NCBI GenBank assembly: GCA_963576565.1
Contig: OY755040.1
Location: 86,025,522-86,089,521, forward strand
Direction of reading: 5' to 3'
DNA: 64,000 nt
DNA from: Aspidapion aeneum
Lineage: Eukaryota > Arthropoda > Insecta > Coleoptera > Brentidae
The stretch's first letter is position 1. Each line of letters opens with the position of its first letter. The notes beneath the pieces are model-generated. The model did not search any database. It had not been told where the DNA came from and saw only the letters and a list, made by a program, of their open reading frames with translations. Shown here piece after piece: positions 1 to 31,534 of this stretch. The position numbers were made by a program, and so were the translations under genes.

Positions 1-306
1 CCACTGCTTGAAAATAATACCACGAAGATCTACTGGGACGTTACCGTAGAAACAGATAGAGCAGTGGAGCACAACCGACCGGATATGGTTGTGTGGAACA
101 AAGCGGAAAAAACGGCAATTATAATTGATTTTACTGTTTCGCAAGATTATAACTTGGCTAAAGCCTATGGAGAAAAAATAACGAAATATCAAGCATTGGC
201 TCAGGAAGTAAAAACCATCTGGAACTTACAAAAGGTGACAATAATGCCAATAGTCATCAGCGCCAACGGCTTGGTACACAGAAAAACCATGCAACATATA
301 ACAGAG
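1..306 (+). pseudogene. R2-like LINE reverse transcriptase, C-terminal fragment (left half)
   Basis: The reading frame is open from base 1 and runs into the Polinton. The protein contains the segment DMVVWNKAEKTAIIIDFTV and, further on, YGEKITKYQAL and VTIMPIVISANG. This is the style of the endonuclease-like C-terminal region of R2/R4-type non-LTR retrotransposons (family assignment from recall). The same frame resumes after the Polinton at 17295 and ends at a stop at 17382-17384. The LINE coding region was therefore open when the Polinton landed in it. The 5' part of the LINE lies outside the window. Confidence 0.7.
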
Positions 307-528
307 AGTAGTAGGTTTAAGCGGGTGCTGGACCACTTTTGAGGAGGGAATGACCTTGAATGACCTTGACGGTCGTTGCCTTGTTTTATGTAGAGACGAA
401 TAGTTTGAGTAGTATATTTGACCTTGAAAAGTTGTGAAGGTCATTATGTTGACCTTGAATGACCTTGACGATCGTTGCGTTTTTTATATGTAGAGACGAA
501 TAGTTCGAGTAGTATTTTTGACCCTGAA
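307..528 (+). repeat. Polinton left terminal inverted repeat
   Basis: It matches the reverse complement of 17067-17288 with only about three differences (one near 415 and two near 524-526). Inside, a roughly 100-bp unit beginning GACCTTGAATGACCTTGACG occurs twice (from about 352 and from 451), so the TIR is itself a diverged tandem duplication. Confidence 0.95.
351..468 (-). promoter_or_regulatory. Cluster of TCAAGGTCA nuclear-receptor-type half-sites in the left TIR
   Basis: TGACCTTGA, the reverse of TCAAGGTCA, occurs exactly at 351-359, 361-369, 419-427, 450-458 and 460-468. This 9-mer is the extended half-site of FTZ-F1/NR5A and ERR-type orphan receptors in animals. The right TIR carries six copies. 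The sites are seen directly; a regulatory role is inference, and the repeats could simply follow from tandem duplication. Confidence 0.5.
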
Positions 529-777
529 CAACCTTGACCTTGTCTGACCTTAAGCACAAAAAATACCTCTATCTTTGACTCTGATTTGTTTTACACTTTT
601 AAAAGATTTACATTATCCCCACCCTAATAATTGTATTTAAACATATAAAAAGGAAAAACAAACCCACTTGAAGTATTAGTAGATTTCTGTATCTCAACGT
701 GTCAAATCACTCTCTAAAATAAAAATAAAGAAAAAATAGTTTAATTTGCGGAAAAACAATAATTTAAAGGTAATAAT
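529..777 (+). promoter_or_regulatory. Upstream region of the first rightward genes, with a TATA-like box
   Basis: This AT-rich leader lies between the left TIR and the first gene. TATAAAA occurs at 644-650, about 130 bp before the start codon at 778. Further TGACCTT-like half-sites occur around 535-550. It is the only plausible promoter for the two small + strand genes. Confidence 0.45.
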
Positions 778-1125
778 ATGGATATTTCAAAAATCAAACT
801 TGAACAAATAAATTTCGAAATAAACAATGAAGCAAAACTTCAATTAAAATCTTTAGATTCATTAAAAGTTAATACCACATATGTTATTAAAGAAATGTGC
901 ACCATTGATACCCGTTATGGAAAATCTGTTTTAATAACATTGGCTGAAGATGCTGATGTATTTAAAACGTTTTTACCAAAACGTGTGCTTAAATCAATAG
1001 ATGATGATTTTATCGATCTAGTTAATAAAAGTAATCAAAAATATACTCTAACCTATCTGGGGCAAAGTGAACCCACATACATCGGTGCAAAACGTAAATC
1101 CATATTTGAATTTGGAATATACTAA
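778..1125 (+). CDS. Small Polinton protein, possible OB-fold ssDNA-binding protein
   Basis: 115 aa, starting at ATG 778. The core reads as a run of short beta strands: TTYVIKEMCTIDTRYGKSVL, then VFKTFLPKRVL, then YTLTYLGQSE. The pattern 'Y-x-I ... T-x-YGKSV ... FLP-x-R ... Y-x-L-x-YLG' resembles small insect and viral proteins I recall as OB-fold-like. A single-stranded DNA-binding role would suit protein-primed replication. The fold is inferred from pattern only; no catalytic motif is visible. It lies 52 bp before the next gene on the same strand. Confidence 0.55.
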   Translation: MDISKIKLEQINFEINNEAKLQLKSLDSLKVNTTYVIKEMCTIDTRYGKSVLITLAEDADVFKTFLPKRVLKSIDDDFIDLVNKSNQKYTLTYLGQSEPTYIGAKRKSIFEFGIY

Positions 1126-1177
1126 ATTATCTTAAAATTATTGTGTGTTAAAATATAATTCTTAAAGTATTAAAAAT

Positions 1178-1483
1178 ATGAATCGTTTGGAAGAACAAAT
1201 TCACGATTTACGATTCTGGTTGTTTGAGAAGTCGGACGAACTGATGGAGGGTGACCCTTCACTAAGAGATGTAGCTAGAGCAAATAATTTTATGGATGGT
1301 GTCATTCAATGCCAAATGTTTTTTATGGGTAACCAAACACTTCAAGAGTTTTGTAAAAATATGAGATGGCTGAATTTGTTGTACCTTCTGAGGCCATTGG
1401 AAGACATTCCACTGGAGCTACTCTATCCACCGCTCGATGAAGATGAAGATGATGATAGTGGATTCAGTGAGAACGATGATTAA
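1178..1483 (+). CDS. Small acidic-tailed Polinton protein, function unknown
   Basis: 101 aa from ATG 1178. The N-terminal two thirds look helical (EEQIHDLRFWLFEKSDELM; FMDGVIQCQMFFMGNQTLQEF). The end is strongly acidic (PLDEDEDDDSGFSENDD). No membrane segment or zinc motif is seen. It follows the possible OB-fold gene and probably shares its transcript. I do not recognise the family. Confidence 0.6.
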   Translation: MNRLEEQIHDLRFWLFEKSDELMEGDPSLRDVARANNFMDGVIQCQMFFMGNQTLQEFCKNMRWLNLLYLLRPLEDIPLELLYPPLDEDEDDDSGFSENDD

Positions 1484-1792
1484 ATATAAGACATTTATCA
1501 AAAATGTGTATTTATAATTAGTTTATGGATTGTAGTATGGATGTAGTTTTAAATTGATAAAAGCTGTAATAAAATATATTATAATAAGAAATGAAAAACT
1601 ATTTTTTAATTGGATTTGTTTTATTGCAATATTATTTTTATCTTATTTTTTTACAAAATTTTATAATAAAGTAACAATATTAGTATAAAACACAAAATAA
1701 ATATATTATAAAAATTAAGGAAGTGTAAAAAACCTATATTGATTTTCATTTGATGTGAATTTTAAAAAATATATTAAAATTCAAATATTTTT
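1484..1792. other. AT-rich convergent intergenic region
   Basis: This stretch lies between the ends of the convergent 1178-1483 gene and the integrase gene. It is very AT-rich and has AATAAA-type polyadenylation signals on the + strand (around 1568). No ORF or repeat is visible. Confidence 0.6.
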
Positions 1793-2725
1793 TTAAACGA
1801 TATCCGACTTATTTATCCATGAATTATGTCTATCTGTAAAACCTAACCACTTAACAAAGTATTGCTCCAGTTTATTACACTTCCTTTTCTTAATAATTTT
1901 CTCCACTAAATATATTGATGGTACGCTGGTTTTCTGTAGCTCCATTTCATAAAAAGCACCAAGTATAGGTTCTCCGTCAAAACTTTCTATTTCATAAGTG
2001 GGTGGATTCGTTATATTTACTTTTACAATTTTAAATTGTTCCGCTGACCACGATGGTGTGTACCCTTTTTCAAAAATTGACTTATATTTGCTTATACGAA
2101 CTACGTCTCCAACTTTGAATTTAATTTTTTTAGGTACCATTTTTATATTTTCAAATGCGGTAATTCTAGTGGTGGGTTTCACATCAATTGGTCTCATTTT
2201 AATAGTTGTGTGAATTGTTTTATTATATTTATCAACAACATCCTGTAAAATATGAAACCACTTATAGCTTCCTAATGTAGAGAATTCTTTATAAAGATTT
2301 GTTTTTAAAGTTTTGATTACTCTTTCCACAATGGCTGCCTTCTTTACACTATATGTGTGATAGTGATTTACAGACTTCTTTTTCATAAGTGCTTGGAAGT
2401 GTTTATTAAAAAATTCCGTTCCTTGATCAGATTGTATGTTATGGGGGTAATAACCAGCTTGCTTAAAAACATCCCGCATTGCTGCACATATTTCAAGTCC
2501 TGTTTTATTTTTTATTGGTCTAGCCCAGACAAATTTAGAAAAGCAATTTATGCATACTAAAATGTATCTATACCCCAAATTATATTTTGATAATTGTTGT
2601 ATTTCAGCTAAATCAATCTGCCATAGATCCTTAAAACCTTTTATTAAGGTTTTTCTTCGCAGGAAATTTTTTCTTGCAGGTTTATATAGCTCATTAACCA
2701 CTTGAACTTTTTGCTCACTAGCCAT
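1793..2725 (-). CDS. Polinton integrase (DDE, retroviral type) with C-terminal chromodomain
   Basis: 310 aa from ATG 2725. The catalytic triad is D38 (WQIDLAE), D100 (QSDQGTEF) and E134 (AAIVERVIKTLK), with 33 residues between the last two. An SH3-like part follows (KFKVGDVVRISKYK), and the last ~40 residues form a chromodomain (YLVEKIIKKRK ... YFVKWLGFTDRHNSW). The enzyme would insert linear element DNA through its TIR ends and make the 6-bp duplication seen here. The usual N-terminal HHCC zinc finger is absent; the protein begins about 37 residues before D38, and no upstream exon is seen before the next gene. The frame is intact. Confidence 0.93.
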   Translation of the reverse strand: MASEQKVQVVNELYKPARKNFLRRKTLIKGFKDLWQIDLAEIQQLSKYNLGYRYILVCINCFSKFVWARPIKNKTGLEICAAMRDVFKQAGYYPHNIQSDQGTEFFNKHFQALMKKKSVNHYHTYSVKKAAIVERVIKTLKTNLYKEFSTLGSYKWFHILQDVVDKYNKTIHTTIKMRPIDVKPTTRITAFENIKMVPKKIKFKVGDVVRISKYKSIFEKGYTPSWSAEQFKIVKVNITNPPTYEIESFDGEPILGAFYEMELQKTSVPSIYLVEKIIKKRKCNKLEQYFVKWLGFTDRHNSWINKSDIV

Positions 2726-2802
2726 CGTTAAAATAAATACTTTATTTTTTCAATTCAAATGGGTGTATGATATTCTATGCGTCCATCTGACCAAATTATT
2801 GG

Positions 2803-3189
2803 TTACAAAGCGGATTCAAGTGGCTGATGTTTCAAAACTTTTCTTTCTATGGCACTCAATCTCCCATGTAAATTTAACAATAGTTTACCACTTGTCGATT
2901 GTTGCGTTTTTATTTTTTCTAAATTAGTTCTTACTGCATCAACAGATTCTTCTATAGCTAGCTTTAGTTCTTCAACTAGTTTGTTTATACGATTTTCCAG
3001 AAATTCTAGATTGATAGCGTCTTTATGATCTACAGCATCTGCTATATTACATAAACGTTTGTTCTCAATGTGGAAATCATTTTTAGCGGTCAACTTAAAA
3101 CCATTACCCTTCAATCCTTTTATATATGTAATTTTGGAAGTTTTTTTTATACGACCAAACTTGTCAATCGTGTTCTTTACACCTCCCAT
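2803..3189 (-). CDS. Fibre/spike-like coiled-coil protein
   Basis: I take the ATG at 3189, which gives 128 aa starting MGGVKNTIDKFGRI; the frame is open further upstream but with only a TTG. The middle reads NKRLCNIADAVDHKDAINLE, which resembles the 'N-x-I-x-N-V-x-x-P-x-x-x-x-D-A-V-N' linker found in phage and viral trimeric tail fibres. A long alpha-helical, coiled-coil-like stretch follows. A trimeric attachment or spike-associated protein is a reasonable inference. It lies between integrase and the next morphogenesis-type gene. Confidence 0.5.
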   Translation of the reverse strand: MGGVKNTIDKFGRIKKTSKITYIKGLKGNGFKLTAKNDFHIENKRLCNIADAVDHKDAINLEFLENRINKLVEELKLAIEESVDAVRTNLEKIKTQQSTSGKLLLNLHGRLSAIERKVLKHQPLESAL

Positions 3190-3235
3190 GTTAGATAGTA
3201 ACTGAACAATATATGCTACAATCAAAAAGTGAGTC

Positions 3236-3682
3236 CTAATATATAACCCCTTCTTCTCTTAATTCTTCAATTATAGACAAAATTTCACCATCATGACCAG
3301 TATGCCCAGCCATTTTTGAGCTCCATAATAATCGCAAGCGACTAACTAATTCTTTAGCAGTATTCCAATATACATAGTTTACTTTATTATTATTGAATTT
3401 TTTGAGATTTGAAATTTTATTTCTGGTAATACCAGAACCTTCTTTACTTCTGCCATGTTTCGGTGTTAGAAGTGGTTTTATAAAATTTGTAAATTTTACA
3501 GATCGGCTGGTATTTACCCCATATATTTTATTATATTCATTGTAATAGGCATTTGACAAATTAAGTATTTGCTTATAATCGCTGAGTGCTTTTGGGCTAA
3601 TGTCGCCAATGTTTGACATACTTGGTTTTTTAAAAAATAACAAATCGTATAAATCACGATGAGCAGAAAATGCCCCAATCAT
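3236..3682 (-). CDS. Conserved Polinton/adintovirus structural-type protein, downstream part
   Basis: 148 aa, ATG 3682. The C-terminus (ELVSRLRLLWSSKMAGHTG, HDGEILSIIEELREEGVIY) matches a family I recall from many insect Polintons and adintoviruses, of unknown function. In relatives I recall this part as the C-terminal half of one longer protein whose N-terminal half corresponds to the next gene upstream. Here the two frames overlap by 4 bp (ATGA, 3679-3682) right after a run of seven A. The break may be a one-base change in the A run, or a stop/restart arrangement. Confidence 0.7.
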   Translation of the reverse strand: MIGAFSAHRDLYDLLFFKKPSMSNIGDISPKALSDYKQILNLSNAYYNEYNKIYGVNTSRSVKFTNFIKPLLTPKHGRSKEGSGITRNKISNLKKFNNNKVNYVYWNTAKELVSRLRLLWSSKMAGHTGHDGEILSIIEELREEGVIY

Positions 3683-4332
3683 ATTTTTTTACGCCAAAGA
3701 GTTATTAGTTTATCTGGAAATTTTATTGTAGCATTACCTATCTGAAAATTATCATTGTTGGAATTGTACCTAACACCATATATGGTGTCATAGATAGATG
3801 GGTTTGATTTAAGCCCCTCCATATAGATTGTAGATATAGAATTTAAATCTTCCCCAATATCTTGTCTCAGTGATTCATCCATAGCTTCATTGTTGACACT
3901 CTTTTTAGGTGATAAATGAGAACTTGCATCTGCATTAAATGATTTTTGACTTTGATTAGAGTATGAGGATATTGGTGTATCCGGCAAGGGTGGTGAAGCT
4001 GAGAGGTAAGATCCATGATGTGATTTATTTCCACCATCACCATCTTCCGAATCATCAACCATAACATTGGCTGCAACTCTCTTTGCTTTTTTTGCTTCCA
4101 CAGCTATCAAAGGTGTTGCTATATTACTACTTGTCCTTTTTACAATTGCTGCATTTTTAAAATTTTCTGAAATTTTTGATAATGGTTTTGAGATGGGTTC
4201 ATAAAATTTCTCAAGATTTGTTTGATTTTGCGACTCTTCATTTTTTAAAAATTTAAATTTTGTTCTTACTGCATCAGTCATAGCAACAAGATCACGTTTT
4301 AAATCGATCGATCGATCGATCGAATTTGACAT
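3679..4332 (-). CDS. Conserved Polinton structural-type protein, upstream part
   Basis: 217 aa from ATG 4332 (MSNSIDRSIDLK); the frame extends upstream to 4374 only through a TTG. The first 80 residues are charged and helical and the middle is Ser/Pro rich (SASPPLPDTPISSYSNQ), probably disordered. The end (YDTIYGVRYNSNNDNFQIGN) resembles the beta-rich core start of the family continued by the 3236-3682 gene. A (CGAT)n run at 4306-4322 encodes the IDRSID repeat near the start. The stop TGA overlaps the ATG of the next frame. Confidence 0.65.
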   Translation of the reverse strand: MSNSIDRSIDLKRDLVAMTDAVRTKFKFLKNEESQNQTNLEKFYEPISKPLSKISENFKNAAIVKRTSSNIATPLIAVEAKKAKRVAANVMVDDSEDGDGGNKSHHGSYLSASPPLPDTPISSYSNQSQKSFNADASSHLSPKKSVNNEAMDESLRQDIGEDLNSISTIYMEGLKSNPSIYDTIYGVRYNSNNDNFQIGNATIKFPDKLITLWRKKI

Positions 4333-4397
4333 ATTTACAAATAAGATGTTTGCAGTTGTTCGTTCTAAAAGCAACTAAAGTTGTTGCTACACATTTA

Positions 4398-5048
4398 TTA
4401 AACATATATGTAACTATCAAATCCTTTTCTATATCTGCCATTGTATAAATCTGCATCTTTAACAATAACTAGAAAACCATATTTATCGTCCCAACATTTT
4501 CCACAGATTTCTTGAAACTTAGTAAAAGTAAAGTCTGGAGAAACGTGATCTGAAAAAATATATCGCAGATTCATTTCATCTTGTTTAAATACTATTATGA
4601 AATTTGAATTATCTCGAACTAGCTGTTTTGGTACTCTAGAGTAAGTCTGTGCTAGGTAAAAACAATCTATATTTTTATGCCTCCCCATACTGTAGTATGA
4701 TTTTATTACACTCTGACCATCGCAAATTACATCATCGAAAATAAATATCGAATTTGGTTTTGCCTCAGATGGTGGTATAACGCAGGATGTATCATTAAAT
4801 GTGTAGTATCCAAGCCCCTCAATGAACAATGATTTGGAGTATATATATACATTTTCAAATTTTAATCCTAGTGGGTGTGTAATAAGAGTGATAAGCACAT
4901 TGGTTTTACCACAATTTGATGGCCCAATTATTAATCCACGTATGGAATTGGGTAGTAAAGATCCATGACGTTGATATGTAATACCACAACCCGTCTTTTC
5001 ATCCCAATTTATAATTGAGATTCTGTCTTGTTGCTGCACTATGCGCAT
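4398..5048 (-). CDS. A32/FtsK-like genome packaging ATPase
   Basis: 216 aa from ATG 5048. The Walker A motif is IGPSNCGKT (residues 41-49) and Walker B is IFIFDDV (101-107), followed by the sensor-like segment FYLAQTYSRVP. This is the small packaging ATPase typical of Polintons, adintoviruses and virophages, expected to pump DNA into the capsid. Length is normal and no lesion is seen. Its start lies 60 bp from the divergent PLA2 gene start (5109), so the two share a short bidirectional promoter. Confidence 0.93.
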   Translation of the reverse strand: MRIVQQQDRISIINWDEKTGCGITYQRHGSLLPNSIRGLIIGPSNCGKTNVLITLITHPLGLKFENVYIYSKSLFIEGLGYYTFNDTSCVIPPSEAKPNSIFIFDDVICDGQSVIKSYYSMGRHKNIDCFYLAQTYSRVPKQLVRDNSNFIIVFKQDEMNLRYIFSDHVSPDFTFTKFQEICGKCWDDKYGFLVIVKDADLYNGRYRKGFDSYIYV

Positions 5049-5108
5049 TTTTATATGAACTATCTTTTAGTATTTAAGCTGACTTGTATTTATATCAAAA
5101 TCAGTTCG

Positions 5109-5924
5109 ATGTCATCTATCAACAGAAAAAGTTCAGTAAAAAAGGGGCGAGGCGTATTTAATTCACTTTTAAATAAACTTCCTGTAGAATTACACATCCC
5201 GGGTTATCAATATTGTGGTCCTGGAACTAAACTAAAGACAAGATTAGCGAGAGGTGATCCTGGAATAAATGCACTAGATAGAGCCTGCAAAAAACACGAT
5301 ATTAGTTACTCTATTAATTTGGATAATTTAGAAAAAAGACACAAATCTGATCGCGAACTAGAAGAAAGTGCGTGGCAAGTTGTTAAATCAAAAGACGCTG
5401 GAATAAAAGAGAAGGCTGCTGCTTACTTTGTTACAAATTCAATGAAAGTTAAGCGAAGAATTGGAATGGGGTTAAAAAAGTTAAAATCGAAAACTCGAAA
5501 GGTGGCTTTTGGGTCTGCGATATGTCGAAACGTTCAAACAAAAATTAAATCGATCTTGAATCAAAATAAGGGGAAATTTCAAGATATTTCAAAAATTTCA
5601 AAAATTGCTTTGATCGCAGCGCGTAAGCATTTAAAAGCTTCTGGTGGCAAAAAGAAGATTAAAACCCCAAGAGTAATTCCCATTCCTAAAATGGGGGGTA
5701 TTTTACCTCTTATACCAATTTTTGCGGGGTTATCCGCCCTAGGATCATTAGCGGGTGGCGCTGCTGGTATAGTTAAAGCAATAAAAACCGTTAATCATCT
5801 TAAAAATAGTGTTGCTGGTGTTAAAAACTCTCAAATGCTTGTAGAAAGTAAAAAAGGGGGAGGTTTATACTTAAAACCGTATCGAACTGGGTTAGGACTT
5901 TATTTAACAAATCCAAAAAACTAG
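5109..5924 (+). CDS. Phospholipase A2-domain minor capsid protein
   Basis: 271 aa from ATG 5109; the frame is open to 5028, but that stretch overlaps the ATPase gene. The viral-type PLA2 motifs are the calcium loop YCGPGT (35-40) and the His-Asp dyad in ACKKHDISYS (H63, D64), as in parvovirus VP1u and insect Polintons. A basic region follows, then a hydrophobic segment (about 196-224, GGILPLIPIFAGLSALGSLA) and a glycine-rich tail (GGGLYLKPYRTGLGLYL) of the kind seen in adenovirus-like minor capsid proteins. It would breach membranes during entry. The last sense codons AAA AAC lie in a frameshift heptamer before TAG 5922-5924. Confidence 0.88.
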   Translation: MSSINRKSSVKKGRGVFNSLLNKLPVELHIPGYQYCGPGTKLKTRLARGDPGINALDRACKKHDISYSINLDNLEKRHKSDRELEESAWQVVKSKDAGIKEKAAAYFVTNSMKVKRRIGMGLKKLKSKTRKVAFGSAICRNVQTKIKSILNQNKGKFQDISKISKIALIAARKHLKASGGKKKIKTPRVIPIPKMGGILPLIPIFAGLSALGSLAGGAAGIVKAIKTVNHLKNSVAGVKNSQMLVESKKGGGLYLKPYRTGLGLYLTNPKN

Positions 5925-5946
5925 TAAAGCCCTTACCAGCAAGGGC
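5915..5946 (+). promoter_or_regulatory. Candidate -1 programmed ribosomal frameshift signal
   Basis: The heptamer A AAA AAC (5915-5921) sits exactly in the PLA2 frame (AAA AAC, then TAG 5922-5924). After a 7-nt spacer comes a perfect 6-bp hairpin, GCCCTT-ACCAGC-AAGGGC (5929-5946). This is the standard layout of retroviral gag-pro shift sites. A -1 shift enters precisely the frame of the adenain-like protease. Efficiency cannot be judged from sequence; the stem is short, and any pseudoknot is not obvious. Confidence 0.7.
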
Positions 5947-6310
5947 ATTATCAAATATTGATTTGGAAAGATATGCAAAACAATATCAAATTGCAAATTT
6001 CGTTGGTGTATTTATGAGAGATAGTCTTCCTAAAAGTGGACCTCGCAAAACTGAATCGGCCATCATAAACTTAGACAGTGTAAATGGACCAGGAACACAT
6101 TGGGTTGCCTACAGAAAGAAAGCTAGAAAAGTAATTTATTATGATAGTTTTGGAAACTTACCCCCACCTTTGGAATTCATAGAATACATGTATAAAGGAT
6201 GTAATTATGCCACAGAAATTTGGTATACATATAAAAACCAACAAAAATTTAATACAGTATATTGTGGTCAGCTGTGTCTACAGTTTCTCTTAAAAAATAA
6301 CTTATTTTAG
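5921..6310 (+). CDS. Adenain-like (Ulp1/C5-type) maturation protease, likely reached by -1 frameshift
   Basis: The frame is open from 5852 to the stop at 6308-6310. Conserved family sequence starts well before any ATG: ALSNIDLERYAKQYQIANFV lies upstream of the first in-frame ATG (6013), and no in-frame ATG exists between 5852 and 6013. Catalytic residues are visible: His in GPGTHWVAY, Asp in YYDSFGN, and Cys in YCGQLCLQFL. The enzyme is expected to cleave capsid precursors during maturation, as in adenovirus. It lies in the -1 frame relative to PLA2, directly after the slippery site. Starting at ATG 6013 would remove the conserved N-terminus. The product may therefore be a PLA2-protease fusion. 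Confidence 0.85.
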   Translation, partial: LVKPLPARALSNIDLERYAKQYQIANFVGVFMRDSLPKSGPRKTESAIINLDSVNGPGTHWVAYRKKARKVIYYDSFGNLPPPLEFIEYMYKGCNYATEIWYTYKNQQKFNTVYCGQLCLQFLLKNNLF

Positions 6311-6325
6311 TAGTAATTTTAAAAA

Positions 6326-6712
6326 ATGAATCGAAATAATTCCGAAAGTGAGTATGCAAAACTAAAAAAAATGTATAAATCACTAAAAGCATTTAGCAAT
6401 GCAAAAAGTTTGCTACCGATGACAAGTGACGAACTATGTGGTTTACCTAAAGAAGTAATGATAGCATGTGCACCAAACGAAATAGCTTTGGTGTGGGAGA
6501 AGTTGCCAGAAGAAGTTAAAGAAGACATTGATATTTTAAAATATCAGTATTGCTACGACCATTACTCTACAAACAACTCTAACGATCAAATTGATGGTCC
6601 ACCACCAAAAAAAATATTTTGTTGTATATGTAATGCAAACGGTTCAAAAGTGTCTAAATCTGAGGAAATTGTAGATTGTGACATTATATCCAGTTGTTGT
6701 AAGACACAGTAA
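6326..6712 (+). CDS. Small cysteine-tailed Polinton protein, function unknown
   Basis: 128 aa from ATG 6326, 15 bp after the protease stop. The N-terminal part is helical and charged (EYAKLKKMYKSLKAF; LPEEVKEDIDILKYQY). The C-terminus carries six cysteines (FCCICNAN ... DCDIISSCCKTQ) that could bind zinc or form disulfides. It lies within the capsid gene block and ends 4 bp before the penton start. I do not recognise the family. Confidence 0.65.
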   Translation: MNRNNSESEYAKLKKMYKSLKAFSNAKSLLPMTSDELCGLPKEVMIACAPNEIALVWEKLPEEVKEDIDILKYQYCYDHYSTNNSNDQIDGPPPKKIFCCICNANGSKVSKSEEIVDCDIISSCCKTQ

Positions 6713-6716
6713 AAAA

Positions 6717-7442
6717 ATGTCTTATACTTTTACATTAAGTGGTTATTCAAGTATTTTAAGTGCCAACTTCTATCCTCCTATAGAGACAAACAACAGAGAA
6801 AAATATGGACTGGGTCTTATAGGATTTTATTCATATAATTCAATTTTTAACATAGATGAAACTAACAATTGGTTTGGATTTAGTAAGCCAAACTGGGGAG
6901 GGCCAGTAATGTTAAAAATACCTCCTGGTGCATACGAAATAACCCAAATACATGATGCAATGCTTAAAGCTCTTCAAAAAGGTGCAAAAGATCTAGATGA
7001 AAATATTTTTAGCTTACGTGCAAACAATAGCACTTTGAAATGCGAAATTAAGTCAAAGTATGTACTTCACTTTAAGCACTACAACTCAATTGGACAGTTG
7101 TTGGGATTTGCAAATGAAGATCGACTAAAGCCCAATGAGATTCATGAATCTTCAACAATAGTTGATATTACAAAAGTTCGCATTATAAGAGTAGATTGCA
7201 ATATAACAACCGGTGCATATTTAAATTCAGAACAGGCGCACTCTATTTATGAATTTGACATTGATGTGGAACCTGGGTATAAGCTAACTAAAGAACCAAC
7301 AAATATCATTTATATGCCAATTCAACCAGAGGGTCGTCAGTTTATCGACAACATTACACTAAGGATCGTGGATGATAGAGGAAAGCTCATTAATTTTCAA
7401 GGAGAAAAAATAATTGTTAAATTAGAGCTTAAAAGGTTATAA
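6717..7442 (+). CDS. Penton-type minor capsid protein (single jelly roll)
   Basis: I take ATG 6717 (MSYTFTLSGYSSILSANFYP), which gives 241 aa; the frame is open further upstream only without an ATG. The opening FTLSG-x-SS-x-L-x-x-x-FYPPI, the segment YGLGLIGFYSYNSI with NIDETNNWF, and IPPGAYEI match the Polinton penton family as I recall it. It would close the five-fold vertices of the capsid. It sits four bases after the upstream stop and five before the next gene, consistent with one late transcript. Confidence 0.88.
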   Translation: MSYTFTLSGYSSILSANFYPPIETNNREKYGLGLIGFYSYNSIFNIDETNNWFGFSKPNWGGPVMLKIPPGAYEITQIHDAMLKALQKGAKDLDENIFSLRANNSTLKCEIKSKYVLHFKHYNSIGQLLGFANEDRLKPNEIHESSTIVDITKVRIIRVDCNITTGAYLNSEQAHSIYEFDIDVEPGYKLTKEPTNIIYMPIQPEGRQFIDNITLRIVDDRGKLINFQGEKIIVKLELKRL

Positions 7443-7447
7443 CGAAA

Positions 7448-7648
7448 ATGGGTTATTGTTTTGATCATCACAGCTATCCAGTGTCGCAAAAAAAAGATGT
7501 TAAGACTTATATTCCAAATAAAAACCGATGCAGAAGCAGTAGAAAAACCATTCATGTTAAAGACTTGTCAAGAGAAAGATCTAAATTGTCCACAGAAGAA
7601 AAAGTGTTTTTGAAATCACTTGGTTTACATTTAAAAAAAACTGTTTAA
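7448..7648 (+). CDS. Short basic virion-type protein between penton and major capsid genes
   Basis: 66 aa from ATG 7448, rich in Lys and Arg (YIPNKNRCRSSRKTIHVKDL) with the C-terminal motif LSTEEKVFLKSLGLHLKK. Short proteins ending in 'FLKSLGL' occur at this place in Polintons and adintoviruses (recall). A DNA-condensing or capsid-cement role is possible but not shown. Its stop lies one base before the major capsid ATG. Confidence 0.65.
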   Translation: MGYCFDHHSYPVSQKKDVKTYIPNKNRCRSSRKTIHVKDLSRERSKLSTEEKVFLKSLGLHLKKTV

Positions 7649-7649
7649 A

Positions 7650-8876
7650 ATGATTTCAACTAGTGAAAAGTTAGAAGCATTTAATGAACCAATTTTTGAG
7701 AATTCAATTATAAGTCTGGAAGAGCATAGTTATAAACCCTATGGAACACCATCTTTTAAAAACTCAGATGAAATTCGTATCCCAATTCAATTTCAAGATC
7801 TAATTATGGATGTTTCCGAAAGTTATATTTATATAGAAGGAAAGTTTACACCAAGTGATGCATCTAAAAGATGCTACTTATCAAATAATGCTCTTGCTTT
7901 TTTATTCGAAGAAATTCGGTATGAAATGGGTGGTGAACAAATTTGCGTTGTTCGAAAACCAGGAATTACTTCAGCACTAAAAACCATTGTTTCATTTGGA
8001 AGTAGTCAAGAAAAGCTTCTTTCAACATACGGTTGGGGTTTAACAGAAGCCAATCAATGCATATTGGACAAAACAAGTCATGTATTTAGTGGAAGACTCC
8101 CATTAAAATACTTGATGGGATTTGCAGAGGACTATAGAAGGGGCATTTTTAATCAAAAACAAGAACTGATTCTCGTAATAGCTCACACCTTCAATAATTG
8201 TTATATTGGTGAAGTTGATGCGGAAATCTCCATAGATAAAATCGAATGGAAAATCCGGCACATAATTCCAGAGGATCGTCAAAGGATTAAAATTCTATCT
8301 AAAATTAATAAGGGTGGTAATAATGTTAATATCAAAGCTGCCTATCGCATGTGGGACCTATATGAATTGCCTCTTCTTCGGAGCACAGCTTCTGATACGT
8401 GGGCAGTAAGAAGTAGTACGAATTTGGAAAAACCACGATACATTATTATTGGATTTCAAAAAACTGAAAATTGCAATGCCAGAGACAAAGATGCCACAGA
8501 ATTTATCTCTGCTGATTTGGCTGATATTAGATTATATATTAATTCGATAGTTTTCCCCTATGAGAGGTGGAGTCTCGATTTTTCAAAAAGATTATGCGGT
8601 CCTGCCTACTATGCATATCAAAATTTTCAAAGCAGTTACTATGGAAAAACATGTAATGAACCAATGCTTGATTTAAATAGTTTTATTCAAAACCCATTAA
8701 TTGTTATTGATGCTTCGCATCAACAGGATTCAATAACCTCATCAACAGTGGATATTAAATTGGAATTTAACACCAGAAAATCTAAATTTCCAAATGATGT
8801 AAAAGTGTATGCTTTACTTATTCATGATTCCCTAATTTCCTATAATATTCTAAATGGTACTGTAACAAGGGGTTAA
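7650..8876 (+). CDS. Major capsid protein (double jelly roll, hexon-like)
   Basis: 408 aa from ATG 7650, intact. Family-like segments include YKPYGTPSFKNSDEIRIPIQ near the start, FLFEEIRYEMGGEQI in the first jelly roll, and IRLYINSIVFPYERWSLDF with CGPAYYAYQNFQSSYYG in the second. It is the trimeric shell protein of Polinton capsids. It is the last gene of the + strand morphogenesis block and is followed by AT-rich DNA with several AATAAA signals (around 8932 and 8991). Confidence 0.9.
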   Translation: MISTSEKLEAFNEPIFENSIISLEEHSYKPYGTPSFKNSDEIRIPIQFQDLIMDVSESYIYIEGKFTPSDASKRCYLSNNALAFLFEEIRYEMGGEQICVVRKPGITSALKTIVSFGSSQEKLLSTYGWGLTEANQCILDKTSHVFSGRLPLKYLMGFAEDYRRGIFNQKQELILVIAHTFNNCYIGEVDAEISIDKIEWKIRHIIPEDRQRIKILSKINKGGNNVNIKAAYRMWDLYELPLLRSTASDTWAVRSSTNLEKPRYIIIGFQKTENCNARDKDATEFISADLADIRLYINSIVFPYERWSLDFSKRLCGPAYYAYQNFQSSYYGKTCNEPMLDLNSFIQNPLIVIDASHQQDSITSSTVDIKLEFNTRKSKFPNDVKVYALLIHDSLISYNILNGTVTRG

Positions 8877-9699
8877 TTTCAATGTAATTTTATTTATAAT
8901 ATTTTTGAATGTATTTTAATGATTTAAATGAAAATAAATGTTTTGAATTTTGTATTTTAAAATGATTTAGATATAAATATATTTTTCTTAAATAAAGTTT
9001 AAATAAAACACATTTTATAGAATACTATTTGTTTTTATATTTTTATACTTATGATTAAGCTATAACAAATTTGAATACTCAATTGCACACCTATTCACAT
9101 AATAAAATTGATAAGACACATATTTACTTGGAGAATAGATGGTAAATTATTCAATTAAAATAAGTGTAGTCTCCAAACTAATAAAGCTATTACAAAAATA
9201 ATTCATTCCATCGATTCAACAACCATATCCAAACAAATTTTATCATATAAAATTTTTTGGAAAAGTTTAATTTTTGGAGATATTTACATAATAAAACAAA
9301 TAAAAACACATTTTGTCAAGTGGGGTAGATGTCTATTCAGTTACAAATGGGTCTAGCTTCTAAACTAATAAGGCTATTACAAAAAATAATTATTTCAATC
9401 GATTAATCAAGAATGCGTTGACATTTCTTATCATATAAAAATTTTTGCTGGACTTTAATTTTAGGAGATAATGACATAATAGCCCAATTAAAATTGTTAC
9501 TATTTTAATTAAATTGATCATAACTGTTAAAATAATATTAATATCACAATAAAATTTTAACAGATCGAAAGCTAACCTATTTTTTCACAATTTTTATCTC
9601 TTAAAAATTTTCAATTAAGACGCTACTTTACAAGATATTAAGAAAAAACGTCTATTTTAAGACATGAAAAAAATTACAAGTCTCAATTTTAATTGATAC
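8877..9699. repeat. AT-rich convergent intergenic region with a diverged direct duplication
   Basis: No gene is visible. A segment of roughly 150-170 bp occurs twice in direct orientation, about 9165-9310 and 9350-9490. Each copy has 'CTAATAA(A/G)GCTATTACAAAAA', then an ATCGATT and TTATCATATAAAA further on. The copies are strongly diverged. The region holds the 3' ends of the capsid block and of the leftward 9700-10122 gene. Confidence 0.55.
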
Positions 9700-10122
9700 T
9701 TAAAAAAAAAACCTATTGGACCCCCCCTGGGGCTCTGCAGCTCCGGGTGACCAAGCAGCGATGCTTGGTGATTCCAAAAACTGTTGCCTTTCACCGTCAC
9801 TTAGTTTTTGATTAAAGTCAATCATGTACTCACGCATGGGTGCCAAATCGTTATCCGCAACCTCACTTGCACCTGCCACCACATTCACATTTGTCGCCAT
9901 TTCCGCATCCGCGGACACGTTACAGTTCGCGAACGCGTTAAAGTCCGCGACCATATCCCCGCTCGCGACCGCATCCGCGGACAAATTAAAGTTCGCGAGT
10001 GCGTCCGCGGACAAATTAAAGTTCGCGAGCGATTCCGCGGACAAATCAGGTAATGCATCCGCAATCATCACCACATTCTCGATCTTCACATAACTTTCAC
10101 TTGAACTACTAAATGAGGCCAT
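9700..10122 (-). CDS. Repeat-containing Ala/Asn/Asp-rich protein, function unknown
   Basis: 140 aa from ATG 10122. The centre has near-repeats of about ten residues (LSAESLANFN, LSADALANFN, LSADAVASGD, then VSADAEMA). The DNA here is much richer in CpG than its neighbours (repeats of CGCGGACAAATTAAAGTTCG). The C-terminus is Gly/Pro rich and ends NRFFF. No homologue is recognised. Hydrophobic residues spaced along an acidic chain suggest a helical or disordered acidic protein. It lies in the same orientation as, and downstream of, the polymerase gene. Confidence 0.55.
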   Translation of the reverse strand: MASFSSSSESYVKIENVVMIADALPDLSAESLANFNLSADALANFNLSADAVASGDMVADFNAFANCNVSADAEMATNVNVVAGASEVADNDLAPMREYMIDFNQKLSDGERQQFLESPSIAAWSPGAAEPQGGSNRFFF

Positions 10123-10817
10123 TTTCGAAAAAAATTACTTAAACTTTTTGAAAAAAAGGAGGAGTTGTTGCTTCGACTAAGAGAAGAACGAGAAAGAACG
10201 CTTACCGCCACATCATGCATCCAAGTAAGCAATTTTACCCCCACTACCATTTACCCCCTCTACCATTTATCTCACCCTATCAACATCAGCGCCACCTATT
10301 GATAAGATTTACAAACACCCCTGGTGTTGAGATTTTCAGTTTTAAATTTAATAAGGTCACTAAGCAAACAATTATAGAATATTAGTTTCCTTAAACTGTT
10401 TTAGAATTATGGTGCCCTTAATTTTGAAAAGCGCCATCTATCATAATTTTTTCAATTATTTAAATATATTCCGAAATAGCGCCACCTATCATCAACTTGA
10501 TGCACTAAATTATTGATAATTTTTTTAAATCCTAATAATTCAACTATTCATCAGTTGGAAATCAATCAATAATAACTGCTCCATCATCGACTGTATAATT
10601 TGAGGGTGAATTCATAGGATTTGGCTATATACATCTGTCATCATTTCACTTTCTGTAAATATTTTCATGTTCTGCCAAAAATGCCATTTCTCACTCACAA
10701 AAAGGTTGTAGAAAAATGAAAAAAAAAACATTTTTGTATTTTAGAATACTTTTTATTTTTATATATTTTCGAAAACTTAAAATTAAGCCATACGCTTATT
10801 AAAACATAACTAATATT
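10123..10817. other. Intergenic region upstream of the 9700-10122 gene
   Basis: This is AT-rich sequence between the polymerase stop and the leftward repeat-protein gene. The motif 'GCGCCA(C/T)CTAT' recurs (around 10290, 10431 and 10480), suggesting old short repeats. No ORF or RNA gene is seen. Confidence 0.4.
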
Positions 10818-13800
10818 TCATTTTTCATATGACTTGATATGTGGATGCCCCCAGGGTAGTGTATGACTTGTGTTAGGTATAACAAACCTTTTATCATCAT
10901 GGTAAGATAATGCAATTTTGTTTCTGGTTTCTGTGTATATATTGTGTAGATCACTTTTAAATGATTTCATTTTTCGAAATAAGTAACCACCTTTTTCAAC
11001 AACTTTTTTATAATCATTAATGGATAAATGCTTATCGATTACACTTTTTTTAACCCCCTTTGCTTTTTTTACCTCCGTTGAGACTGAGTTTATATAGTAG
11101 GCTTTAGCTCCTGTTCCATAGAAACTTAGAATTGGATCTTCAGGAAATTCATCCTTCATTCTACCCAAAACAGATTCGTTTTTACTTATATTAAACCTAT
11201 TTACTTTCTTATAATTAGATGTATCGAATTTCTCAGGGTTTTCAATCATAAATTTATAGAAATCATCAGTGTAAATTTTAAGTACTAGAGAATCTGTATC
11301 TGTATACATTAAACTTGCACTATTGTGAAACTCTTTTTTTATAGTATTATAAAAAAAGTCATACAAAACTGTTTTAGACAAATCCAGAATACAAAAACCC
11401 AAATATATTGGTTTATTGTATACAATTTTGAGTTTACTCATATGAACAGCAATTAATTCTTCGGTAAATATCGAGCAATTGTTAAAATTGGGTCTACTGA
11501 TTAGAGCACGAGCACCGGCCCTTCTACGAATACTCTCCCAACTTGTAACTAATTTTATATCTTTATGATTCTCAACATTTTCCATAGTTTTTCCGAATAC
11601 TGCATTATTAAAAAGCTTGTATAAATCTTTTTTAAATTTTGTATCAGCAGAGTTTCGAAGCTTTGTGTTAGTATCGATATTCTTTTTTAACCAGGGTGAT
11701 TGTTCAAATTTTAACATTCTATGAGTTTGAATGACTATTAACCCATTTCTTACTGCCTGATTTAAAGTTTTATAGTGTACAATATACCTTATTTTATCAT
11801 GCAAATTTGGAATGAGTTTGGGGAATTTGGATGATGAATCTAGAGGGATTATATTTTCCATCAAAAATGGAAAATCAGCATGAGCTTCATGCAACTCATT
11901 TGGATAATACACATCTACTTCAAGAATGTATCCTATGGGACTGTCATCTGGTACATTATGAATATTTAAATTTATCATTTCTTCTTGTGAGAGCCATTTA
12001 AAACCTTTTGTGGGTAGTGGTTGTGACATACTATGCCCATATAAATTTGTTGCATCCAAATACATTATAAAGGATGACTTTATACTTGGATCATAATTTG
12101 GAAGGTACTTATTATTTGCTATATGCATTCTATCAACACATTGACTAACACCCCCTCGAATCCCTTTTTTAAAGAAATGAATCATGTCAATTTCAGTCAA
12201 TAGCTCTAATTCTACTTCTGTCATTCTAAGCATACAATCAAATGATAATGATGGCAACGTGTAATATTGAGCTGGATCTAGGTTATAAGTCTTTAAAGAA
12301 TTTCTTCGAAATGCTTCAAAAACATCAGTTAAAATTAAAACATCAGTTTTCAAATATAAATCCGAATAGTCTCCTAAAGTTTTACAATTAAATAGACTCC
12401 ATACTTTTTTCCCTCTATCATATTCTAAATCTGTAATATGCTGATCATTTAGATCATCGAAGAAGTGGTTTTTCGTGGGTAGATTAGTAACGTCTAATTT
12501 GTCTAAGTCAGAGATAAATCCATATGGAAACACACCTTTTTGTCTCATTAAACTAAATTCTTCTTCAGATGTAAAATGTTTGTGTGTTTCTAAAAAGGAG
12601 TCTGAATCTAAACCTTTACTTAACTCATCCAGGGATGCAGCTAAAAATTTGTAGCTATCTATAAATCTTAGACGTAGATATTTTTTTATGATTTTTCCTT
12701 CAGAATTCATGTAATCATGTACATATATGGATTTTGTAAATGAAATATATTTTTCCTTGTTTTCTGCAATAACATCTATTTTATCGCCATGATGACACAA
12801 TTTCTTAATAAACATGTGACAATCATAACCACTTAGATTGTGAAAAATTATTGGAATGAAATTTGGTAATTGATGTTGTAAGTTACAAGTTGAATGTGCA
12901 GCTAAAAATCTTTTTTTTCCCGTTATGTGACAATGATCGGTTACTTTTTTATCAAATAAGTTAAAAGGTTTACCACAAATTCCACATTTGTCACATGTTT
13001 CCACTATGTCTCTTTCTTCAGGTGTTAGTGGTGTCATTGGGACTATATCTCTTAAATAATTATTGTGAAGCTCTCTAAGATCACGTTCAATACATGCTAC
13101 AAATTCTTCTGCTGCGCTTGAACCACGGAATAATTTAAATTTTGTTAAATCATCATTGAATGAACATTTAATTATGTATGCAAATGAATATGGTTTATGT
13201 ATGATATTTTTGACTGTGAAAGAATTTAATGGATCTGGTTCACAACCTGCCATTGGTTGTAAAATTGATTCAAAGTCAGCATACACTACAAAGGGAACTG
13301 TTAGCTGTTTTTCATAACTTTCGAACTTTAACATGTTTTCTTGTGTTGTTTTTCCAAATCTATCAGTTTTTAAATCTGTAGATGGGGTTATCGCGTAAAC
13401 TTGCCCACAGTCATATTTTTGATGAAATATTAGTTTTTCTGCTGTTATAAAGTGTACTAAACAACCATCGCAAAAATAAAGTCTACGTTTCGACATTGAT
13501 ATTTGATGGGAAACCAAAGCTGAAAGATTTTTTATCCAACAATAATGTGTTCTATTACAATCGCTATTACATTCATGAGTTTCTTCTTTAATTTTACAAT
13601 CTTCACTTATGATTAATAAGTTTATGTGAGTGTCAAGTTTTCTCTTGGAATAGCGAAGTGGACCAACAACTTCATATTGAATTTTTTTATTTGCAAATCT
13701 GGTTTCCAATGTATAAACATTAATTGAAATATTATTGTTTTGTTCAAACCTAGATATATCAGTCAATTTAACCGGCATTTCCATACCTGCAAGATTTAAA

Positions 13801-14738
13801 ACTGTAGAATAATGGGGGTAGGAAGAAACTCTGTCTACATGAAGTGAAACTGGGTATAAAGCTGATGTAACAGCCCATGCAAAACATGCATTATCCTGAT
13901 TTTTTATATTCACTACAGCATATTTAGATTCAATGAATTTGGGTAACTTGAAGTATGAATTGCCCCCAATAGGGCGAAACTTGTTGATGTTGTTTTCCAA
14001 GTGTAGTATATGTTGTAAAGTCCAACCTGTAAATAAATTAAAACATTATTAATTAAACAACCATATTTAAAAAATGTTTCACTGATTATTATTAAACAAA
14101 AATTATTTATTTTACTAATGAGTAATCTTACCAGAATCTCGCTCCATAAACTCGCTCGCTTGGGAAATTATTTTATCTATAAAAAACTCATAAATATTAT
14201 CCAAATCAGAGGCATCACACACTATTTTATTATTTGTGTTAAATGATTTATCAGCTAGGGTTTCTTTTGATTGGTGAAGAAACGTTGCAAATAATTCCAT
14301 ATTAATTTTTATTGAGGTGTGTTTTGCTATATTTTCTTTTACTAATGTTAGACATTTGGGTTTTATCTCATAAAAAAACCTTCTGTAGTCTTTTTGCTGA
14401 GTTTCTGAAGCAATTCTATAACTTGCTATTCTGCATTTAAGACCACTTCTTACCACACATACACCATTGGAGTATGGTGCACATGAGTTATTTTTATGTT
14501 GAAGTGTTCTACAATGAGCAAAAAATTTATCTTTGGGTATGAAAATCTTGCATTCTCTACACATTTCCAATTGTTTATCACCATCTTTATCAACTTTTAA
14601 ACTAGCTATTTTTCTTTTCTTTAATGGTTGCTCATTGATATTATCATCATTATGTTTATATTTGCAAGCTGTTTTATTATGTCTAACCATATTATCTTTT
14701 CGAGTAAAACTTTTGTCACATTTTGAACACTTCAACAT
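10818..14738 (-). CDS. polB: Protein-primed DNA polymerase B, two exons
   Basis: Exon 1 runs 14738-14132 and exon 2 14026-10818, separated by a 105-bp GT-AG intron. Exon 1 begins MLKCSKCDKSFTRKDNMVRH, a zinc finger, followed by a second Cys/His cluster. Exon 2 has a 3'-5' exonuclease domain (YADFESIL, FHNLSGYD, YLKTDV) and the polymerase motifs A (YLDATNLYG), B (LFNNAVFGKTMENVE) and C (YTDTDS). The YADFES...DATNLYG style is that of Polinton and other protein-primed family B enzymes. Exon 2 has no ATG near its conserved start; the first codon of the long uninterrupted frame is TTG at 14000, so splicing is needed. The gene looks intact. Confidence 0.92.
14027..14131 (-). other. Spliceosomal intron in the DNA polymerase gene
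   Basis: The donor reads CTG|GTAAGA (intron base 14131) and the acceptor TTTATTTACAG|GTTGG (14027). Removing 105 bp keeps the frame between the zinc-finger exon and the polymerase exon and restores the conserved family sequence at the junction. Without splicing the first exon ends in a stop six codons past the junction. Confidence 0.85.
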
Positions 14739-14939
14739 GGTCACTTTACTTGTTACACCTTAAATTATTTATTTATTAGGTGTTTTCATCAACACCTCTG
14801 TTTTAACCACTATGCTTTTTTTATGCCCGTTTTGGGTTTTATAACAGACACCCCACTCCACCTCATTTTCTTCAGCTGTATCTGATAACTCTCAAATATA
14901 TTTTTTTTGATCATAATTCACAGCAAAATCTAAATAGTT

Positions 14940-15199
14940 TGACCTTGAACAAAATTTACAACCAAATGTATTATTTTTTAATTTATTTTTGGTTTTGCAA
15001 AATATTCTCAAGGTGACATTGACCTTCATTTAACCTTGAACAAGATTGATGAGCAATTACATCTTTAACCTTGGAAAAAATTATACAGTGACCTTCATTT
15101 AACCTTGAACAAGATTGATGAGCAATTACATATTTAACCTTGGAAAAAATTGTCAACGATTCACACTGACCTTGATATAACCTTGTAATGGGTATATAT
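14940..15199 (+). promoter_or_regulatory. 69-bp tandem repeats with receptor-type half-sites and a TATA box
   Basis: Two copies of a 69-bp unit start at 15020 and 15089 (TGACCTTCATTTAACCTTGA...), and a partial third starts near 15167. Perfect TGACCTTGA occurs at 14940-14948 and 15167-15175. TATATATA follows at about 15192-15199, roughly 55 bp before the start codon at 15253. This has the look of an enhancer plus core promoter for the 15253 gene. Confidence 0.5.
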
Positions 15200-15252
15200 A
15201 TTTTACTCCTCATTTGGCAAACACTCATTCTTGCTCGATTTGTCTTCCTATA

Positions 15253-15570
15253 ATGTCATCCACCGCTCGCCCTACCCTCATCGTTCGTCCGTTTTTGAAA
15301 AATGGGCATGTGCAGTGCAATTTCTGCAATGTCTGGAAACCGGTAGAGGTTTTTACAATTAATGGACGATGCGATGTCTGTAGTGAGCAATATCAAAGAA
15401 TTATGGAGAGGCAGAGCAATCCTCCATATTCACCCGAATCACCTGTGTACATCTCAGACAGTGATGATTATGAGGTGGTGGAGAGTGATGATGATGATTC
15501 TGATACCAATTATGGTGTGTGGGAAGTAGCGAGAGTGACTCTCCTCCTTCTGAGGAGATGTCTGATGTAG
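15253..15570 (+). CDS. Small four-cysteine (zinc-ribbon-like) acidic protein, C-terminus probably frame-broken
   Basis: 105 aa from ATG 15253; the frame upstream has only a TTG. CNFC and CDVC, about 16 residues apart, form a likely zinc knuckle, followed by a Pro/Ser and acidic part (YISDSDDYEVVESDDDDSD). After about 15515 the frame becomes unlike the rest (VTLLLLRRCLM). The neighbouring frame continues the Ser/Glu-rich character to a stop at 15615-15617, so a one-base indel near 15515-15525 is likely. The function is unknown; the composition suggests a regulatory protein. Confidence 0.5.
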   Translation: MSSTARPTLIVRPFLKNGHVQCNFCNVWKPVEVFTINGRCDVCSEQYQRIMERQSNPPYSPESPVYISDSDDYEVVESDDDDSDTNYGVWEVARVTLLLLRRCLM

Positions 15571-15617
15571 GAAGCGAAAGAGCTGACTCTCCTTTTGAGG
15601 AGGCTCAACGTTGGTAG

Positions 15618-16310
15618 TCTGGTTTAGTTTAATTGGGGTGTACAATAAAAATGGCTGGTACACACAGCTCAGTGCGAGGTTTGGGGCACTGTGGCACTAA
15701 ACCAAACAATTAAAAATTTTCATCTAACAATTTTAAAATGAAACCATTTGTAAAAATCCTATCTTTTGAATCACATCAATATTCAATTTTTAAATTATAG
15801 TAACGCAAATTTTGTTCATTTATGCACAAACTAAAGTTAAAAATGGTAAAAAAAAACGTTTTTAAGTTTCATTTTTATATGCTATTCCAAGCAATCTTGC
15901 TCTCTTATAAACAAACCAAAGTTTAAAAATTCTTTCTAAAAGTTTGTATTTTTTTTAAATTAGATCTTTTCTACAAATTGGTTTATTCTACACTATGAAA
16001 TTTTACTCTTTTATAAACAAACTAAAGTTTAAAAATTATTTTTAATACTTTCTTTTTTGCATTAGCATAATATTCTTTTCTATATTAAAGTTTATTCTAT
16101 AAAGTTCAACTATAAAATAGTAACCAAAATTAAAAAATTATACAAATTTTTTTGTTTGTTATTAAATTACCATAATGTTTTTTTCTTAATATAGATTTAT
16201 TATATTTTACATATTCAAATTGTTTTTTTTTGTTTCATAAAGTTATATATTGGCTAACTAATAATTTTATATAAAAACTAAATATGTTACAATAAAAAAA
16301 TGTTAAAAAT
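15618..16310. other. AT-rich intergenic region, no gene seen
   Basis: This is low-complexity AT-rich sequence with repeated phrases such as 'AAACAAAC(C/T)AAAGTTTAAAAATT' near 15910 and 16015, probably diverged short tandem repeats. No supported ORF or RNA is present. Confidence 0.5.
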
Positions 16311-16520
16311 TTAAAGAAAAGCATAAAAAAGATCCTTTAGCTTATTGTAGTCATTTAATTTTGCTTGGAATTCTTCCTCCACACCTTCGGTCTCTCTTTG
16401 TAGTCGTTGAATCTCTGCTTTGAGTAGATCCACTCTTTGTTTAAGCTGCTCCACGCAGCTTCTTTTCACCCGTAGGATTTGGATAGCCTGCTCTATCGTT
16501 TGGCTTTCTATTGTTGACAT
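16311..16520 (-). CDS. Short coiled-coil protein near the right TIR
   Basis: 69 aa from ATG 16520. Heptad-like leucines and a charged helix (VEQLKQRVDLLKAEIQRLQR ... FQAKLNDYNKL) predict a coiled coil. It starts inside the last 13 bp of the upstream frame (16508-16855), so the two are either coupled overlapping genes or two parts of one acidic/basic/coiled-coil protein separated by an indel. No family is recognised. Confidence 0.45.
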   Translation of the reverse strand: MSTIESQTIEQAIQILRVKRSCVEQLKQRVDLLKAEIQRLQRETEGVEEEFQAKLNDYNKLKDLFYAFL

Positions 16521-16855: not shown

Positions 16856-17066
16856 TTTCTACTAATGTGAAATTCGCTGTTGAAGTAAAGAAACTTTAAT
16901 AGTACTCTTCTGATATTTATTTTTCTTTAAATACTTGTTGGGTGTTAGTTTAGTGGGGGTAAAGTCTACAGAAAATAATATATCTAAAAAGCGGGCAAAT
17001 AAAGCAATGTTAAAGATTCTGAAGGTTAAAAAATACACATCTTTACTATAATTTTGGATTATTTTT

Positions 17067-17288: not shown

Positions 17289-17294
17289 ACAGAG

Positions 17295-29846: not shown

Positions 29847-29847
29847 C

Positions 29848-31534
<1,687 letters not shown>

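Follow-up and report, generated by a model that had tools for sequence, protein, structure and literature searches.

In retroviruses, gag and pro are joined by a -1 frameshift at the slippery heptamer A AAA AAC, as in mouse mammary tumor virus. Among DNA elements, vertebrate Polintons (Mavericks) encode, according to the accessible part of their description, a protein-primed polymerase, an integrase, an ATPase, capsid proteins and an adenovirus-type protease, and have AGT-repeat ends (PMC8097293). For adintoviruses, the available portion of a 2024 preprint puts forward hypothetical -1 frameshifts, predicted by KnotInFrame, that yield Penton isoforms and Hexon-Adenain ("Hexain") fusions (PMC11071296). 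The present analysis concerns a 64-kb window (the whole stretch of 64,000 nt analyzed) from the beetle Aspidapion aeneum, which contains a complete-looking Polinton/Maverick in positions 307-17288, and in particular the junction between its gene for a phospholipase A2-like (PLA2) protein and its gene for an adenain-like protease. By far the best explanation of the sequence in positions 5915-5946 is a programmed -1 ribosomal frameshift site joining PLA2 to the protease, to which we assign a probability of about 0.86.

The PLA2-protease junction and its conservation in the host genome

The PLA2 frame reads CCA AAA AAC TAG at its end, the last sense codons forming A AAA AAC (5915-5921), a heptamer of the X XXY YYZ type in the phase of the upstream open reading frame (ORF), and TAG (5922-5924) abuts it directly. 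A spacer of 7 nt (5922-5928), within the 5-9 nt usual for a stimulatory structure, is followed by the candidate stimulator, a hairpin with stem GCCCTT (5929-5934), loop (5935-5940) and AAGGGC (5941-5946). The adenain-like protease is in the -1 frame, which has no start of its own at the head of the downstream ORF and is open from 5852 to 6310, with no ATG in it before the first one of the protease. These features had been pointed out by the sequence-only reading and stand as described, except that the first protease-frame ATG, placed by it at 6013, is actually at 6014-6016. This ATG encodes residue 32 of the post-slip protein and lies inside the adenain fold. The protease is predicted to adopt the adenain (peptidase C5) fold with conserved His and Cys, which we take to be catalytic; the fold is predicted to begin a few codons after the slip site, and a start at 6014 would delete its first helix and nearly all of its first strand.

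Elsewhere in the element, in-phase AAAAAAC is absent from the 2642 codons of seven ORFs (this count does not include the PLA2 end and the protease ORF). Looser canonical slippery heptamers are found 31 times, which corresponds to a chance of approximately 3.5% that one falls within the final three codons of a gene. A chance in-phase slippery site was considered and rejected at the family level, since its recurrence in diverged families, as well as in the PLA2 homologues found in other hosts, places the junction well above chance. No Rfam match was found in positions 5700-6400 at E-values up to 1.

The search of the host genome (1.29 Gb) gave 796 first-look candidates, of which 150 were scored. 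In all, 100 junctions were compared, which are not a random sample: it consists of the 30 best matches, all from the window's own family (L014 being the window copy), and 70 junctions hand-picked for diversity. The junctions form six families, A to F, with counts derived from the protease frame alone; families A-E span protease identity down to 49%. The sequence-only reading had proposed such a comparison for copies from related insects; among the copies compared here, 74 of the 84 assigned to families A-E carry the heptamer in phase (A, 48/53; B, 12/13; C, 2/2; D, 3/3; E, 9/13), and all 16 of family F lack it. Of the 74 copies with the heptamer, 73 have a -1 frame that is open from there to the F-x-G-V-F motif of the protease, and the base following the heptamer is T in all 74. 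The distance from the heptamer to this motif is 84 nt in 73 copies and 66 nt in the remaining one. The PLA2-frame stop is offset from the heptamer by 0 codons in families A (47/48), B (11/12) and C (2/2), by one codon in D (3/3) and by two in E (8/9), and the PLA2 tails vary among families (NPKN, NSKN, YSKNF, KTKNFQ). Since the distance to the motif is constant while the stop offset and the tails vary, the heptamer is anchored to the protease. Representatives of families A-E, translated in the -1 frame, give K-K-L, followed by LP or IP, any residue, R or K, A or P, and L. The first post-slip codons are CTA, CTG and CTT, and no near-AUG codon is shared. In families A-D, no ATG is found between the heptamer and the motif in any of the 65 heptamer-bearing copies.

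Family F (L058 and 15 other copies) is a natural control, contrasting frameshifting with AUG initiation: the heptamer is lost, PLA2 ends with QKTKT where it could be read, and the protease frame has an ATG at position -117 in 14 of 16 copies. Five further copies, L050, L072, L073, L074 and L075, with the upstream protease frame open for 288-430 codons, were considered as fusions and set aside as products of decay or indels.

The hairpin has a folding energy of -10.5 kcal/mol, with z-scores of -3.1 in a window of 39 nt, -1.8 in 61 nt, -3.2 in 79 nt and -1.1 in 119 nt. Its stem is intact in 47 of 53 copies of family A and in all 13 of family B, hence no compensatory change is visible. Of the hairpin called textbook by the sequence-only reading, its presence in families A and B stands, while no equivalent was found in representatives of families C, D and E. 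As the hairpin is found only in the window's family and its sister family B, the conserved signal is the heptamer and not the stem; in families A and B the hairpin probably aids slippage.

Consistent with a signal at this place, the divergence between families A (10 copies) and B (6 copies) is 17% in the PLA2 part and 15% in the protease, but about 7% in positions -30 to +36, and this 66-nt stretch has the ninth lowest divergence of 754 overlapping stretches. The stretch from the slip site to the first Met has a synonymous change of 0.067 per site in 4 x 6 pairs, compared to 0.39 before and 0.33 after it, and a non-synonymous change of 0.117; in the two other, stop-containing frames pS is 0.18 and 0.21. 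These values agree with a signal at the RNA level that overlaps coding sequence in families A and B, as judged from few sites in two related families.

Homologues in other hosts

The search for PLA2 homologues found 2756 proteins, and the counts below refer to the best 120 of them; those with named hosts are, we believe, mostly from beetles. A K-N pair lies within 0-2 residues of the PLA2 end in 119 of these 120 homologues, the exception being P0136. The residue before the terminal K-N can be encoded by an A-ending codon in all 119 cases, while 32 of 192 internal K-N pairs of the same proteins are preceded by a residue without such a codon. Moreover, the codon after the terminal K-N is forced to begin with T in 106 of 119 proteins, compared to 3 of 192 for internal pairs, and T is impossible in 2 of 119. 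At 70% identity the same set forms 40 clusters, of which 39 are wholly K-N.

Among the best 120 of 430 protease homologues, 80 have at least 10 residues ahead of the motif and 40 lack such a stretch. The pattern KKL..LP gave 17 matches, of which only about 8 lie at the junction as judged by eye, and this number was left aside.

In-frame PLA2-protease fusions were identified by pattern in 22 of 116 proteins (120 listed of 784 found), a rough number, as the pattern misses some (e.g. P0241, P0252) and takes in models with a partial protease (e.g. P0258, P0315, P0352). Eleven of the 22 (P0104, P0244, P0247, P0248, P0250, P0259, P0261, P0266, P0269, P0276, P0280) come from lgn, ena and jgi sources, which we take to be unspliced contigs, while the remaining ones, taken from UniRef or from gene models of named hosts, may contain predicted introns. 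In seven in-frame fusions (P0243, P0245, P0246, P0247, P0261, P0276, P0280) K-K-N is found exactly at the join; here the slip site could have been retained and work in reverse, with the fusion in the 0 frame and a stop in the -1 frame. Lysine runs, perhaps another A-run slip site, are observed at the PLA2 end of P0313, P0319, P0330, P0345 and P0349 from the P0104 clade, in the place occupied by K-N in others.

No relatives were found in viral contigs with the window protease, A1 or A2 as queries; in wider genome contigs, none were found with query A1, and query A2 gave only L001, a distant relative whose protease has its own ATG. Polinton-type proteins are also present in bacteria-named records (L001; P0077, P0151, P0281), namely a Balneolales metagenome-assembled genome (MAG), Staphylococcus aureus, a Rickettsia MAG and Escherichia coli; this is probably eukaryotic contamination.

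Weighing the explanations

The fusion could also be produced by RNA-polymerase slippage, known from the potyvirus PIPO, if an extra A in the A6 run placed the protease in frame in a part of the mRNA. The protein outcome would be identical, and 74 of the 84 copies in families A-E retain the six-A run. Polymerase slippage is indifferent to phase, yet the run is phased as A AAA AAC, as seen from the K-N pair in all but one of the listed PLA2 homologues, and the following base is invariably T in the heptamer copies; we consider this explanation very unlikely. An intron joining the two frames is less probable still and can be nearly disregarded. Judging splice sites by eye, CTA|GTAAAG in positions 5921-5929 looks like a weak 5' splice site, and some named host gene models that join both genes could be spliced predictions, but the next acceptor-like stretch ends just 16 nt downstream. 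A length of 16 nt is too short for an intron. Moreover, the same place reads AACTGATTGG in family C and AACTTTTAAG in family D, with no GTAAAG, and the families have no splice sites in common.

Another possibility is that the protease is synthesized on its own, starting from the ATG at 6014, from a non-AUG codon or through re-initiation beyond the PLA2 stop, the heptamer being incidental. This agrees with family F, which has its own ATG, with the post-slip codon CTG of family C, CTG being a common non-AUG start codon, and with the Met located within approximately 5 residues of the LPxR block, just ahead of it, in 66 of the 120 listed protease homologues. Such a Met may be a start codon or a plain fusion residue, and many relatives may have an AUG start. 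These observations weigh against the frameshift, as do several others: in family E, the first helix contains an ATG in all nine heptamer-bearing copies; representatives of families C, D and E yielded no comparable hairpin (z above 0), and no general downstream stimulator is seen; 10 of the 84 copies from families A-E are without an in-phase heptamer, including L036 (AAGAAC), L087 (one A lost) and L079 (a deletion), with visible decay in most of those inspected; K-N is near the end in just 5 of 14 PLA2-only proteins of the P0104 clade (by eye, three proteins that are not PLA2-only being dropped); the families are not fully independent, A and B as well as C and D being close kin; families C and D are known from two and three copies, respectively; and the junctions were selected as described above. 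Still, separate synthesis has against it the lack of an ATG between the heptamer and the motif in families A-D, the location of the ATG of family E within the first helix, the broken fold that a start at 6014 would give, and the absence of a near-AUG codon common to the post-slip positions, and it leaves the conserved heptamer and the 84-nt distance unexplained; we judge it to be quite improbable.

The -1 slip accounts for the phase, the heptamer, the next base, the constant distance, the absent AUG and its exchange for an AUG in family F, and is therefore ranked over the other explanations. Of the frameshift as proposed by the sequence-only reading, which the comparison strongly supports, the heptamer, its phase, the -1 frame and the AUG-less protease head are common to five families, while the stem is not general. 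The absence of an AUG holds for families A-D, and for the protease head in A-E, but not for the other-host homologues with a nearby Met.

According to the proposed mechanism, ribosomes completing PLA2 would slip back by one nucleotide at A AAA AAC, immediately before the stop, and continue translation in the protease frame, where no AUG precedes the conserved fold. The majority of ribosomes would terminate and yield PLA2 alone, and a minority would produce a PLA2-protease fusion via K-K-L; we infer the slippage itself, its rate, and the carriage of the protease into the particle by the fusion, alongside the PLA2 protein. Families C-E would use another stimulator or none. The role of the fusion in protease dose and particle carriage is suggested by analogy with retroviruses and with the natural in-frame fusions.

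More broadly, we lean towards the view that one branch of the animal Polintons brings its maturation protease into the particle as retroviruses do: a conserved slip on A AAA AAC would fuse a small share of PLA2 to adenain, in several lineages with no nearby RNA structure, while related lineages would have a permanent in-frame fusion or a separate AUG. We know of no account of how protease is dosed and packaged in Polintons. If true, a DNA virus would have arrived independently at the Gag-Pro strategy, a convergent counterpart of the retroviral rule; a translational switch on the membrane-active PLA2 protein would tie protease supply to the amount of a particle protein. It would also explain why gene finders possibly truncate the protease at the inner Met, and the junction peptide would provide a handle for showing that Polinton proteins are truly made.

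The element and its comparison with known systems

The element has the hallmarks of Polintons: an integrase with a chromodomain, a double jelly-roll capsid protein, an A32-type ATPase (just over the cut-off), terminal inverted repeats and a 6-bp target-site duplication (Table 1). The 1075-aa ORF is presumed to encode PolB from its place and motifs, an identity that could not be confirmed; it has no Pfam match at E-values up to 0.01 and no PDB match at E-values up to 1. An endonuclease VII-like stretch is observed in its residues ~348-389 (PHROGs, E-value 0.0015). No second copy of the Polinton genes is present within the window. A tandem array of approximately 2 kb, with self-matches offset in steps of ~8 nt, is located in positions 29494-31534.

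Table 1. Positions of the Polinton and its features in the window
Feature	Positions	Strand	Basis
Whole Polinton insertion, ~17.0 kb, AGTAGT termini	307-17288		inverted terminal arms, outer ends and flanks
Target-site duplication ACAGAG, 6 bp, left copy	301-306		flanks, by eye
Target-site duplication ACAGAG, 6 bp, right copy	17289-17294		flanks, by eye
Left terminal inverted repeat	307-531	+	99% complementary to right arm
Right terminal inverted repeat	17064-17288	-	inverted-arm comparison
Retroviral-type integrase with chromodomain	1793-2749	-	Pfam PF00665 and PF00385
Packaging ATPase (A32-like)	4398-5066	-	PF04665, 22.9 bits vs cut-off 22.8
PLA2 gene (0 frame), phospholipase A2-like domain, C-terminus NPKN	5109-5924	+	Pfam PF08398, E 2.5e-12
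Slippery heptamer A AAA AAC	5915-5921	+	sequence and family comparison
0-frame stop TAG, immediately 3' of heptamer	5922-5924	+	sequence
6-bp hairpin GCCCTT/AAGGGC, candidate stimulator, families A and B only	5929-5946	+	folding and family comparison
Protease, -1 frame, predicted adenain fold, 129 aa post-slip, stop 6308-6310	5921-6310	+	
First ATG of protease frame, end of first strand of the fold	6014-6016	+	sequence and predicted fold
ORF of no assigned function, 3' of protease	6326-6712	+	one weak Pfam match below cut-off
ORF between protease region and major capsid gene, place of minor capsid protein	6717-7442	+	no Pfam match
Double jelly-roll major capsid protein	7650-8876	+	PF21738, E 1.6e-77
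1075-aa ORF, presumed PolB, identity not confirmed	10818-14045	-	place and motifs

In the open-access literature available to us we found no description of a PLA2-protease frameshift in Polintons or adintoviruses, which does not prove its absence from print; in particular, it is not described in the accessible parts of PMC8097293, PMC12721341, PMC12567637, PMC4028283 and PMC11089739. As for the novelty suggested by the sequence-only reading, a frameshift into adenain has already been proposed as a hypothesis (PMC11071296); the PLA2-adenain version was not found in the print available. As far as that preprint is accessible, PLA2 does not occur in it, and its sole "phospholipase" passage concerns polyomavirus VP2.

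The locus resembles vertebrate Polintons in its integrase, ATPase, capsid proteins, adenovirus-type protease and AGT-repeat ends, the polymerase being presumed only; the available text on the latter puts the protease in the capsid module and uses "frameshift" in two places, both for decay mutations (PMC8097293). With the "Hexain" proposal, as far as the preprint could be consulted, it shares the broad element group and a predicted -1 slippery site that links a structural gene to adenain, but the genes there are Hexon and Penton, whereas here the gene is PLA2, and phase, position and AUG replacement are backed by comparative evidence (PMC11071296). The in-frame fusions of related elements (e.g. 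P0104, P0244, P0247, P0248, P0261) have the same two domains in the same order with a corresponding join; unlike the locus described here, they are one ORF with no -1 step, and every PLA2 would carry a protease unless cleaved.

As in retroviral gag-pro, the same heptamer is in phase just ahead of the 0-frame stop, the protease ORF lies downstream in the -1 frame with no AUG, the upstream ORF encodes a presumed virion protein, and a spaced hairpin is present, here in families A and B only. In contrast to gag-pro, this is a DNA transposon or virus with no downstream structure found in families C-E, its protease is of the cysteine type with the predicted adenain fold and not aspartic, and the upstream protein is PLA2 and not Gag. 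By analogy, the Polinton junction would work like retroviral gag-pro, though it is not gag-pro itself.
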